DNA from: Pseudanabaena yagii GIHE-NHR1
GTDB lineage: Bacteria > Cyanobacteriota > Cyanobacteriia > Pseudanabaenales > Pseudanabaenaceae
NCBI RefSeq assembly: GCF_012863495.1
Contig: NZ_JAAVJL010000001.1
Coordinates: 1,302,001 to 1,366,000, forward strand
Direction: 5' to 3'
DNA: 64,000 bases
This document shows, one piece after another, positions 6,549-49,773 of this stretch. A program made the position numbers and the translations under genes. The notes under the pieces were generated by a model. The model had not been told where the DNA came from, did not search any database, and saw only the letters and a program-made list of their open reading frames with translations. Within the stretch, counting starts at the first letter, position 1, and each line of letters opens with the position of its first letter.

Positions 6549-8198
6549 GTGGAATTTAGAAAATTTGATGCAATTGTAATTGGTGGCGGTGCAGCAGGTT
6601 TATATACTGCCCTGTCTTTGTCTGACTCGTTGGGAGAGCATCCTACGACTCAAGAACAGGATTGGAAAATTGCGCTGATTACCAAGGACAACTTGACCAT
6701 TTCCGCGAGTGACTGGGCTCAGGGTGGAATTGCCGCAGTAATTGATCGCAATGACTCAATTAATCTTCATATCGAAGATACCTTACGCGCAGGTGCAGGA
6801 TTATGTGAGCGCGAAGCTGTTGAAGTTTTAGTTAGCAAAGCTAAGCCTCAAATCCATAAACTTTTAGAATTTGGGGTTGATTTCGATCGCTTACAGGATA
6901 AGTCGCTTGCCCTAACGCTAGAGGCGGCGCATTCACGGCGAAGGGTTCTCCATGCTGCCGATGCCACAGGACGGGAACTGGTGAGCACCTTGGCAAGAAG
7001 AGTGGTTGATCGTCCTAATATTCAGGTTTTAGAAGGGGTTTTAGTTCTGGATTTATTGTTAGAGAAGTCTCCAGAAGGCGATCGCTGTGTCGGTGTATCC
7101 TGCGTTGAGTTGAAACAAGATCCTGACAAATTAATCGGTTTATTAGCTCCTGTAACCGTTCTGGCAACAGGTGGTGGCGCACAGGTCTTTTCACAAAATA
7201 CTAATCCTCCTGCCAGTACTGGTGATGGTGTTGCGATCGCATGGCGAGCAGGCGCGAAGGTACGGGATCTCGAATTTGTGCAATTTCATCCCACGGCTCT
7301 AGCCATTGAAGGCGCACCGAGATTTTTAATTAGTGAGGCAGTGCGCGGCGAGGGAGCACATTTAATAGACCACAATGGCGATCGCTTTGCCTTTGAATAT
7401 CACCCACAGGGAGAACTTGCACCTCGCGATGTTGTCAGCCGAGCCATCTTTCAACATTTACAAAAGACTGGCGAACCGACTGTATTTTTAGACTTGTCAC
7501 CCATTGATCGCGATCACATTGCCTATCGTTTTCCCAACATCATCAAAATTTGTCAAAAATGGCATATTGATCTTTTCTCGCAACCGATCCCCGTCACACC
7601 TGCTGCTCACTACTGCATGGGTGGGATCGTGACTGACACATGGGGAGCAAGTTCCATTACAGGTTTATATGCAGTTGGTGAAAGCTCTAGCACAGGTGTT
7701 CATGGCGCAAATCGTCTAGCAAGTAATTCCCTTTTAGAATGTTTTGTCTTTGGGGTACGTCTCGCCGAAAAAGTAGCTCAGGATTTGATTCAACGAAAGA
7801 GCGAGCAAATCAGTGATCCTCAGATTGACTTCACCATTGATGCCTTGAAGTTTCCAGACATTAATACTAATGCGGCATCCCAAGAGCGAATCGCTACTAT
7901 TCGCCAAGAATTACGGGAGTTAACATGGCGATCGGCAGGGATTTGTCGTAATGCTGAGGCGATGGAAACTGCGATCGACCAAATCCAAAACCTACAACAA
8001 GAAATTTCCACCTTGCGGAGCAAAACGCGCCTCTGGGCAGAAACCCATAACCTAATTGACTTTGCCTACTTACTAGTCAAATCTGCCCTATTTCGTACTG
8101 AAAGTCGAGGCGCACATTTCCGCCTCGATTATCCCGATACAGAATCCACTTGGCAATTACATACTGTGATTCACGGTCAAGAAATCTTTACTCAATAG
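6549..8198 (+). CDS. nadB: L-aspartate oxidase (NAD biosynthesis)
   Basis: A 549-residue FAD enzyme that oxidises L-aspartate to iminoaspartate, the first step of de novo NAD synthesis (NadA follows; not in this window). The N-terminal dinucleotide-binding motif 'AIVIGGGAAGLYTAL' (about residues 8-22) is clear. 'SDWAQGGIAA', 'TGDGVAIAWRAGA', 'FVQFHPTAL' and 'HGANRLASNSLLECFVFG' are typical of the succinate dehydrogenase/fumarate reductase flavoprotein fold. The C-terminal helical domain is present, so the gene is full length. It begins at GTG 6549; no better ATG lies before the FAD motif. It is transcribed alone after the psbU terminator. Confidence 0.92.
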   Translation: MEFRKFDAIVIGGGAAGLYTALSLSDSLGEHPTTQEQDWKIALITKDNLTISASDWAQGGIAAVIDRNDSINLHIEDTLRAGAGLCEREAVEVLVSKAKPQIHKLLEFGVDFDRLQDKSLALTLEAAHSRRRVLHAADATGRELVSTLARRVVDRPNIQVLEGVLVLDLLLEKSPEGDRCVGVSCVELKQDPDKLIGLLAPVTVLATGGGAQVFSQNTNPPASTGDGVAIAWRAGAKVRDLEFVQFHPTALAIEGAPRFLISEAVRGEGAHLIDHNGDRFAFEYHPQGELAPRDVVSRAIFQHLQKTGEPTVFLDLSPIDRDHIAYRFPNIIKICQKWHIDLFSQPIPVTPAAHYCMGGIVTDTWGASSITGLYAVGESSSTGVHGANRLASNSLLECFVFGVRLAEKVAQDLIQRKSEQISDPQIDFTIDALKFPDINTNAASQERIATIRQELRELTWRSAGICRNAEAMETAIDQIQNLQQEISTLRSKTRLWAETHNLIDFAYLLVKSALFRTESRGAHFRLDYPDTESTWQLHTVIHGQEIFTQ

Positions 8199-45200: not shown

Positions 45201-45578
45201 ATGACATCTTCTACAAAAACTTTGCGCGTTTTGGTGGTGGATGACCACGAACTCACCCGATGTACTTTACAACTAGCACTTTCTTTACAAGCCTGTATAG
45301 GTTCAGTAGAGGTTGCCATTAACGGTAAAGAGGCGATCGCTAAAGTCCAAAAGCTTGAGCCTGATGTTGTGGTCATGGACTTACATATGCCCGTGATGGA
45401 TGGCTGGACAGCTTCCAGTGAAATCAAAAATAAATACCCTCATGTCAAGATTGTGGCTTATTCAGCAGCCGATGGTGGCAAGGCACAGGCAATCTCGAAT
45501 GGGGCAAATATCGATGCTTTTTGTGATAAGGGAGCCTGTACCCGCAGTTTACTAGAAGCTATTAAAAGTGTTTCTTAA
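45201..45578 (+). CDS. Single-domain response regulator (receiver only)
   Basis: A 125-residue CheY-like receiver. The acidic pair is in 'VLVVDDHELTR', the phospho-Asp in 'VVVMDLHMPVMDG' (about residue 59), and the conserved Thr/Ser position in 'IVAYSAADG'. The usual C-terminal Lys is found as 'CDKGA'. No output domain is attached. It could accept phosphate from the hybrid kinases here through the HPt protein at 36417; that is conjecture. Confidence 0.9.
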   Translation: MTSSTKTLRVLVVDDHELTRCTLQLALSLQACIGSVEVAINGKEAIAKVQKLEPDVVVMDLHMPVMDGWTASSEIKNKYPHVKIVAYSAADGGKAQAISNGANIDAFCDKGACTRSLLEAIKSVS

Positions 45579-45597
45579 AACTAGTGTTTCTTAAAAT

Positions 45598-45632
45598 AAA
45601 AAAGAAGCGGTGCTTTGCACCGCTTCTTTTTT
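45598..45632. terminator. Bidirectional terminator after the receiver gene
   Basis: Perfect 16-bp arms with a TTT loop and A/T tracts; it overlaps the end of the convergent rhomboid-like gene (stop 45631). Confidence 0.85.
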
Positions 45633-46242
45633 ATGGTTTAGATGCTAAGAATTTTGCAGCAATAATCCCCCCAATAAATCCAAATAAAAAGCTTTCCCAA
45701 GAAATATTAGATTGTTTCGGTAATATACCAAAAAATAGAAGCGCACAAAGGATTATAGCAATAGCAATCGAAGTATAAAATATCGCAAATTTACGTTCTA
45801 AGTAAATTTGAAATAGACAATAACCATAGAATCCAAAAACTACACCACCTGCACCAATATGTAGTGTATTAGGTTTGCCAATTAGCCAAGTTCCGAAGCC
45901 ACTCGAAATAACTGATGAACAAAACACAAAATAAAAATCTTTGATGCTTCTGTTAATTACCAACCAACCCAAAATAATAAATGGGACTGTATTTTCGGCA
46001 ACCGAATAAAAGTTTGCATGGATAAAAGGAGCTATGAATATACCGCGAAAGCCAACGATACTTTGAGGCATAATCCCAAATGAGATCAAGCTCCTATTAA
46101 ATAAAAATTCATTTATAGCTACTACAATCCAAAAAACTGATGCTAAGAGAAATAGAATAAAAATCTTTTTCTGTTGTTCTTTATTCAATGGGTTTATTTT
46201 CTGACTCATATTTTTATCTCCATATCTCAAAGAGTTACACAA
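45631..46242 (-). CDS. Rhomboid-like protein lacking both catalytic residues
   Basis: A 203-residue polytopic protein, clearly a paralogue of the next gene (46388): 'FLLASVFWIVVAINEFLF', 'IVGFRGIFIAPFIHANFYSVAENTVPFIILGWLV', 'HIGAGGVVFGFYGYCLFQIYLER' and 'SWESFLFGFIGGIIAAKFL'. The nucleophile motif G-x-S-x is GAGG here (Ser replaced by Gly), and the catalytic His of the last helix is Phe ('SWESFLFG' against 'SWEGHLFG'). It should bind like a rhomboid but not cleave. The frame is intact, so it is under some constraint or very recently inactivated. Confidence 0.85.
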   Translation of the reverse strand: MCNSLRYGDKNMSQKINPLNKEQQKKIFILFLLASVFWIVVAINEFLFNRSLISFGIMPQSIVGFRGIFIAPFIHANFYSVAENTVPFIILGWLVINRSIKDFYFVFCSSVISSGFGTWLIGKPNTLHIGAGGVVFGFYGYCLFQIYLERKFAIFYTSIAIAIILCALLFFGILPKQSNISWESFLFGFIGGIIAAKFLASKP

Positions 46243-46289
46243 AGATTTTTTAATTAATCGTATCGTCAGCTTCAGTGAAAAATTATTTT

Positions 46290-46341
46290 GATATTTATCT
46301 TGATAAATTTACTGATAAATAAATTTATCAAGATAAATATC
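46290..46341. repeat. AT-only perfect inverted repeat between the rhomboid genes
   Basis: 22-bp perfect arms (GATATTTATCTTGATAAATTTA and complement) with an 8-base loop. Unlike the other hairpins it has almost no G or C. It lies 47 bases before the active paralogue's stop and upstream of the inactive one, so it may end or attenuate the transcript. Confidence 0.65.
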
Positions 46342-46387
46342 TCAGGCTTTAGGAGACAATATGAGCAGAGCTTTCAAGCATCTATAA

Positions 46388-46975
46388 CTAAAGTCTATTA
46401 TTCTTACTCTCAGATAGCATCTTAGCGGCAATAATTCCACCAATAAACCCAAACAAATGTCCTTCCCAAGAAATGTAGGCTCGTGTTGGTAATACCCCCC
46501 AAACTAATCCGCCATAGATCATAGCGACTATCACGGAAATTGCGATCGCCACAAAACTTCGCTCAAAGTAACCCCGAAATAGCAAATATCCAAAATATCC
46601 AAAAATTACGCCACTCGCACCAATGTGTACAGAATCAGGTCTACCTACTAGCCATGTTCCTAGACCACCGATTAACGCTGATATAAAAGATACGAAATAA
46701 AAATCATTGATGTTTCGTAACATCACAAACCACCCTAAAACAATAAAGGGCAGTGTATTAGCGGCAACATGATAAAACCCTCCATGCAAAAAGGGAGCAA
46801 ACAGAATACCGCGCAAACCTATCAAGTGATGAGGCAGAATCCCTAAAGCATTAAGCCTGCCACCAAACAATAATTCATTAACAATAACTACAGCCCAAAA
46901 GACTATGACGCAACTTCCTAAAATCTTAAATTGAGTTTTTAGTTCTCCACTAATTGCTTGTAGCTTTTGCTTCAC
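46388..46975 (-). CDS. Rhomboid family intramembrane serine protease
   Basis: A 195-residue membrane protease with about six helices. Catalytic Ser is in 'HIGASGVIFGYFGYLLF' (GASG motif) and catalytic His in 'ISWEGHLFGFIGGIIAAKML'. The first-loop 'LRGILFAPFLHGGFYHVAANTLPFIVLGWFV' carries the conserved 'H..F.H...N' region. Substrate unknown. It lies 145 bp upstream of its inactive paralogue on the same strand, indicating tandem duplication. Confidence 0.92.
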   Translation of the reverse strand: MKQKLQAISGELKTQFKILGSCVIVFWAVVIVNELLFGGRLNALGILPHHLIGLRGILFAPFLHGGFYHVAANTLPFIVLGWFVMLRNINDFYFVSFISALIGGLGTWLVGRPDSVHIGASGVIFGYFGYLLFRGYFERSFVAIAISVIVAMIYGGLVWGVLPTRAYISWEGHLFGFIGGIIAAKMLSESKNNRL

Positions 46976-49702: not shown

Positions 49703-49709
49703 GTGCAGA

Positions 49710-49742
49710 AGAGAGTTGCGGCGCTTTGCGCCGCAACTCTCT
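49710..49742. repeat. Second hairpin after ftsH
   Basis: 15-bp perfect arms with a TTT loop (GCGGCGC-TTT-GCGCCGC), 8 bases after the ftsH terminator and 31 before the first fluC gene. Confidence 0.6.
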
Positions 49743-49773
49743 TGACTAGGATAGAAAACGCTATAATGCCAAT

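Follow-up and report, generated by a model that had tools for sequence, protein, structure and literature searches.

Why should a cyanobacterial genome keep, directly downstream of a rhomboid protease gene, a second rhomboid gene in which the catalytic residues are gone? The question is raised by a locus of Pseudanabaena yagii GIHE-NHR1 (contig NZ_JAAVJL010000001.1), for which all positions are given in the numbering of the window, i.e. the whole 64,000-nt stretch of DNA that was analysed. The two rhomboid genes lie head-to-tail on the minus strand, the predicted active gene upstream and the dead one downstream, within the following set of features:

45201–45578, plus strand: single-domain response regulator, convergent to the pair
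45596–45634, minus strand: intrinsic terminator-like hairpin directly 3' of the dead gene (−25.9 kcal/mol, z −10)
45631–46209, minus strand: catalytically dead paralogue, 192 aa, ATG start, Pfam Rhomboid 60 bits
46210–46387, minus strand: spacer from the stop of the active gene to the ATG of the dead gene, 178 nt, with the Shine-Dalgarno sequence GGAG
46290–46341, minus strand: perfect inverted repeat in the spacer, 22-bp arms with 8 nt between them
46388–46975, minus strand: predicted active rhomboid-family intramembrane protease gene, 195 aa, GTG start, Pfam Rhomboid 83 bits
47728–49614, plus strand: FtsH AAA metalloprotease, divergent neighbour, 0.75 kb off

An earlier note on this DNA had described a tandem rhomboid pair with similarity over the whole length, and this description holds, with both products scoring above the curated cut-off of Pfam Rhomboid PF01694 (22.6 bits) and aligning with each other from end to end in BLASTP with a single gap (95/191 residues identical, 50%, E 2e-67). 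The upstream copy carries HGGFYHVAANT in TM2, GASG in TM4 and SWEGHLFG in TM6; with the Ser-His dyad and the TM2 HxxxxHxxxN motif all present (signature HHNSH), it is predicted to be an active protease. The downstream copy reads HANFYSVAENT, GAGG and SWESFLFG, the last two exactly as the note had reported. Both of the catalytic losses proposed there, TM4 Ser to Gly and TM6 His to Phe, are therefore real, but the count was too low, as the second TM2 His is also replaced, by Ser (signature HSNGF). The dead copy consequently has neither the Ser of the TM4 GxSx motif nor the TM6 His of an active protease; of the TM2 motif, the first His and the Asn remain. At the nucleotide level, the replacement of Ser by Gly takes one change (AGT/GGT), that of the TM6 His by Phe two, and that of the TM2 His by Ser three. 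The frame is intact, as had been claimed, but the 203 codons reckoned from a TTG at 46242 reach too far upstream; translation probably begins at the ATG at 46209, which gives 192 aa, has GGAG 8 nt in front of it and is identical in a second genome (G030). GGAG also precedes the GTG start of the active gene.

The divergence of the dead copy extends beyond the active site. Among 49 near-invariant positions defined from 69 active proteins, it keeps 39 and loses 10, including the active site (L54, L63, H69, S121, L131, G135, F137, Y154, G155 and H174), compared with a mean of 0.4 and a maximum of 3 losses when the active proteins were themselves scored by leave-one-out. GC content of the dead gene is 0.32 vs 0.39. 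A third rhomboid in the same genome has all its motifs intact (HGNIFHLVGN, GASG, AHVSG). Against the rhombosortase model (TIGR03902, NCBIfam cut-off 84 bits) the active copy scored 29 bits and the dead copy gave no match.

AlphaFold2 predicted a rhomboid fold for both the active (pLDDT 90.3, pTM 0.88) and the dead protein (pLDDT 86.4, pTM 0.83), with the first helix of the latter starting at residue 7. While a profile search of the PDB with the dead protein by sequence alone returned no match, fold comparison of its model with Foldseek did, with GlpG (2xow) as best match (E 1e-4, TM-score 0.70/0.74) and a weaker match to iRhom2 (chain 8snl_B, E 3.5e-3). Profile match and fold together place the dead copy in the rhomboid superfamily, and the fold combined with the loss of catalytic residues makes it a rhomboid pseudoprotease in the general sense. 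Its TM4–TM5 region seems to be the most diverged part, judging from the lower model confidence at residues 131–150 (about 78 in the dead vs 94 in the active copy).

The pair is narrowly distributed. A family search recovered a relative in 34 of 38 genomes, with two copies only in the P. yagii genome and in G030, and the other 24 genomes examined in the genus all have a single copy whose active site is complete. The dead proteins of the window and G030 are 96% identical and have the same three losses and the common signature HSNGF, which excludes sequencing error; the occurrence of the pair in a related cyanobacterium, which the earlier note had proposed looking for, is thereby established. That note had also named a relative with an active Ser/His second copy as evidence against its reading, and none was found in this slot. 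Family and phylum searches together gave 76 distinct relatives, comprising 73 with HHNSH, the two dead proteins and one with HHNSA, the latter from a frameshifted assembly. A search of GTDB r220 contigs with an alignment as query gave 80 relatives, all HHNSH (several genomes are common to both sets), and no second copy was present beside these 80 within the fetched flanks; a GTDB contig scan with the dead protein as single query found nothing. Plasmid records yielded distant rhomboids only (about 34% identity or less among the matches listed), and literature searches, whose coverage mostly excluded subscription journals, returned no report of the pair or of cyanobacterial dead rhomboids. Among other loci encountered, three cyanobacterial-type rhomboids (L140, L143 and L183) lie on contigs labelled as Spirochaetes or Myxococcales MAGs, indicating contamination or transfer, and three loci in other cyanobacteria (L233, L236 and L241) are active/active tandem pairs of the canonical rhomboid subfamily.

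Comparison of gene order shows the slot in which the dead gene sits. The response regulator is the usual direct downstream neighbour of the active rhomboid across the genus, and in both carrier genomes the dead gene fills the slot between the two. G022 and G014 do not have the dead gene; there the same terminator-like hairpin comes after the active gene. On the other side, FtsH also adjoins in G014 and G013, but a GGDEF gene takes that place in G030 and G022, and the FtsH adjacency was therefore rejected as a conserved link. A short palindromic sequence 3' of ftsH (49706–49743) recurs many times in Pseudanabaena genomes.

Co-transcription of the active and dead genes is plausible. The Shine-Dalgarno sequence and most of the spacer are conserved in G030. 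The spacer repeat folds to a 24-bp AU-rich hairpin (−26.4 kcal/mol, z −7.2) with no T tract, and is possibly an attenuating element; searched for as a repeat family, the palindrome gave no further members and is unique within its own genome. The G030 spacer has a shorter, 22-nt palindrome. It also differs in containing (L033, about 7410–7476) a palindromic dispersed repeat that occurs at many sites in G030. A promoter scan gave counts no higher than in shuffled sequence.

The head-to-tail layout, the location between active gene and response regulator, and a terminator common to single-copy relatives would all suit a simple, recent tandem duplication of the active gene next door, with ordinary subfunctionalisation under way, and the protein AU test leaves placement of the dead copy as sister to the local active genes unrejected (p 0.25–0.62). 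The codon model, however, puts this placement (sister to the P. yagii and G030 active genes) 24 log units below the best tree (SH 0.041, KH 0.011). In the best of six placements tried the dead copy branches before the split of G018, and its dS to the local active gene (about 1.0) is similar to that between the active gene and G018, leaving a recent duplication improbable. The tree nests the dead copy in the genus with support of 100/99, its long stem measuring 0.99 changes per site. Its exact position there is tentative, but it is probably older than the local clade of its present active neighbour; a split of this age implies losses elsewhere or transfer. Nested as it is within a cyanobacterial genus, its catalytic loss is, on these comparisons, independent of that in iRhoms. 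The flanks of G030 are closer to G022 (92–95%) than to the window (86–90%), whereas the active genes of P. yagii and G030 group together with G022 outside (100/94), and the window and G030 differ by a dS of 0.08–0.11 in the pair, against 0.20 in the response regulator and 0.49 in the sulfoquinovose synthase. We infer from this conflict and from the lower dS that the pair was probably exchanged between species by recombination.

The dead copy could also be a relict without function: an old paralogue, by now inactive, that is drifting and has yet to break. The substitution pattern bears directly on this reading. Between the window and G030 the dead gene shows 8 nonsynonymous and 10 synonymous differences (active gene: 6 and 14), and neutral simulation gave a probability of 0.004–0.03 for 8 or fewer nonsynonymous differences over the mutation settings tried. 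In codon maximum likelihood on 18 sequences and 190 codons, with a custom-written model rather than a standard package, background omega was 0.09 and that of the dead crown 0.23, the latter based on 18 differences in one species pair. An omega of 1 was rejected for the crown (2ΔlnL 8.9, p about 0.003), in line with the dN/dS below 1 proposed as a check in the earlier note, and equality with the background was not (3.45, p about 0.06). Four placements gave a stem omega of 0.14–0.26; it was 0.11 when the dead pair was basal and 0.04 when G009 was its sister, a placement with a saturated stem; a stem omega of 1 was rejected on the two trees tested (2ΔlnL 18.7 and 45.9), and a stop-free frame after 150–250 neutral changes would be rare (under 1%), but the stem constraint may predate the loss of catalysis. 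For a relict speak the presence of the gene in two genomes only and its absence from the other 24 of the genus, its lower GC, its ten lost near-invariant residues and the low dS of the dead pair (about 0.1), which left a short time for decay. Amino-acid changes were polarised by eye with the active genes as reference; most of those with a clear direction fell on the lineage of the window, those at conserved residues being V>A, L>F, L>F and G>S, which are possibly early erosion or some relaxation. The rejection of neutrality weighs against drift, as does the sharing of the losses, the intact frame and the Shine-Dalgarno sequence by both species, with the structural core kept. On this one species pair the dead copy looks to be maintained by selection, and we consider a relict unlikely, although it is the most serious rival. 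Far less probable still is residual hydrolysis by a relocated nucleophile, such as the Ser now found in place of the second TM2 His; this Ser was gained beside a retained first TM2 His and Asn, but no TM6 His is left as base, and we know of no precedent for a relocated rhomboid nucleophile.

The reading we favour, with moderate confidence, is that the dead copy is a rhomboid pseudoprotease kept for a non-proteolytic job, likely as a client binder or as a modulator of its active neighbour. The lost residues, the intact frame, the predicted fold, the sharing of the losses by a second species and the constraint are observed, whereas expression, partner and mechanism of the dead protein are what we infer. 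With its predicted six-helix rhomboid fold it cannot cut, lacking the Ser-His dyad and the supporting TM2 His, and its most likely job would be to bind transmembrane clients via the retained rhomboid core. It could then modulate the active paralogue encoded upstream, by forming a hetero-oligomer with it or by acting as substrate decoy, or it could pass clients on to FtsH or another processive protease, in a manner similar to YqgP. The FtsH adjacency is weak evidence for such an adaptor role, as the gene lies 0.75 kb away here but is absent next to the pair in G030. More tentatively, and with some doubt, the pair may form a natural two-gene unit in which the pseudoprotease regulates the adjacent intramembrane protease or brings the clients of that protease to FtsH. 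Such a unit would be an independent bacterial counterpart of iRhom/Derlin function and would move between species as a whole.

Rhomboid pseudoproteases have been studied mostly in eukaryotes. Like the eukaryotic iRhoms, the dead copy is a catalytically dead member of the superfamily that coexists with active relatives in one organism, and it has the iRhom2 Foldseek match, but the suggested analogy does not extend to architecture, as 192 aa are too few to include either the iRhom homology domain, which sits between TM1 and TM2, or a long cytosolic N-terminus. Compared with GlpG-type active rhomboids (PF01694) it shares the fold, the first TM2 His, the Asn and the membrane core, and differs in the missing dyad and second TM2 His and in altered TM4–TM5 residues. 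Bacillus subtilis YqgP is a closer bacterial parallel than iRhoms, being a bacterial rhomboid with a functional non-proteolytic form, with FtsH encoded beside the pair in the P. yagii genome: the S288A mutant of YqgP retains the FtsH adaptor function and presents MgtE to FtsH (PMC7231995). In the literature covered, the bacterial pseudoprotease function is that of an enzyme with proteolytic activity of its own, and YqgP needs its N-terminal domain for the adaptor role (PMC7231995), whereas the dead copy has no such extra domain and its FtsH adjacency is not conserved.

A rhomboid survey of 59 genomes of the phylum revealed a second dead rhomboid family, with GANG in place of GASG. Matches to this family at E ≤ 1e-50 that were better than those to canonical rhomboids occurred in 41 of 386 phylum genomes. 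In an alignment of 33 members (one being the query itself again), Asn replaces the Ser in 33/33, Gln the second TM2 His in 32/33 and Gln the TM6 His in 30/33, and the gene adjoins a protein-kinase-like gene in seven of the eight genomes looked at. The GANG loci (L247–L253 and L255–L284, in other cyanobacterial genomes) are possibly more interesting than the pair in the window. The family has changed at the three positions that are lost in the dead copy (the Ser, and in almost every member the TM6 His and the second TM2 His) and likewise kept the first TM2 His and Asn, but it belongs to another rhomboid subfamily, uses Asn/Gln/Gln, is widespread and has a kinase-like neighbour instead of an active rhomboid. 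Given this family, catalytic loss among bacterial rhomboids is, as far as sequences indicate, not unique to the window, whose case is independent, narrow and lineage-restricted. The P. yagii pair would offer a natural small dead rhomboid beside a live relative, a test bed for the origin and role of rhomboids that do not cut, and the GANG family suggests that bacterial rhomboid pseudoproteases may be commoner than the literature covered indicates.
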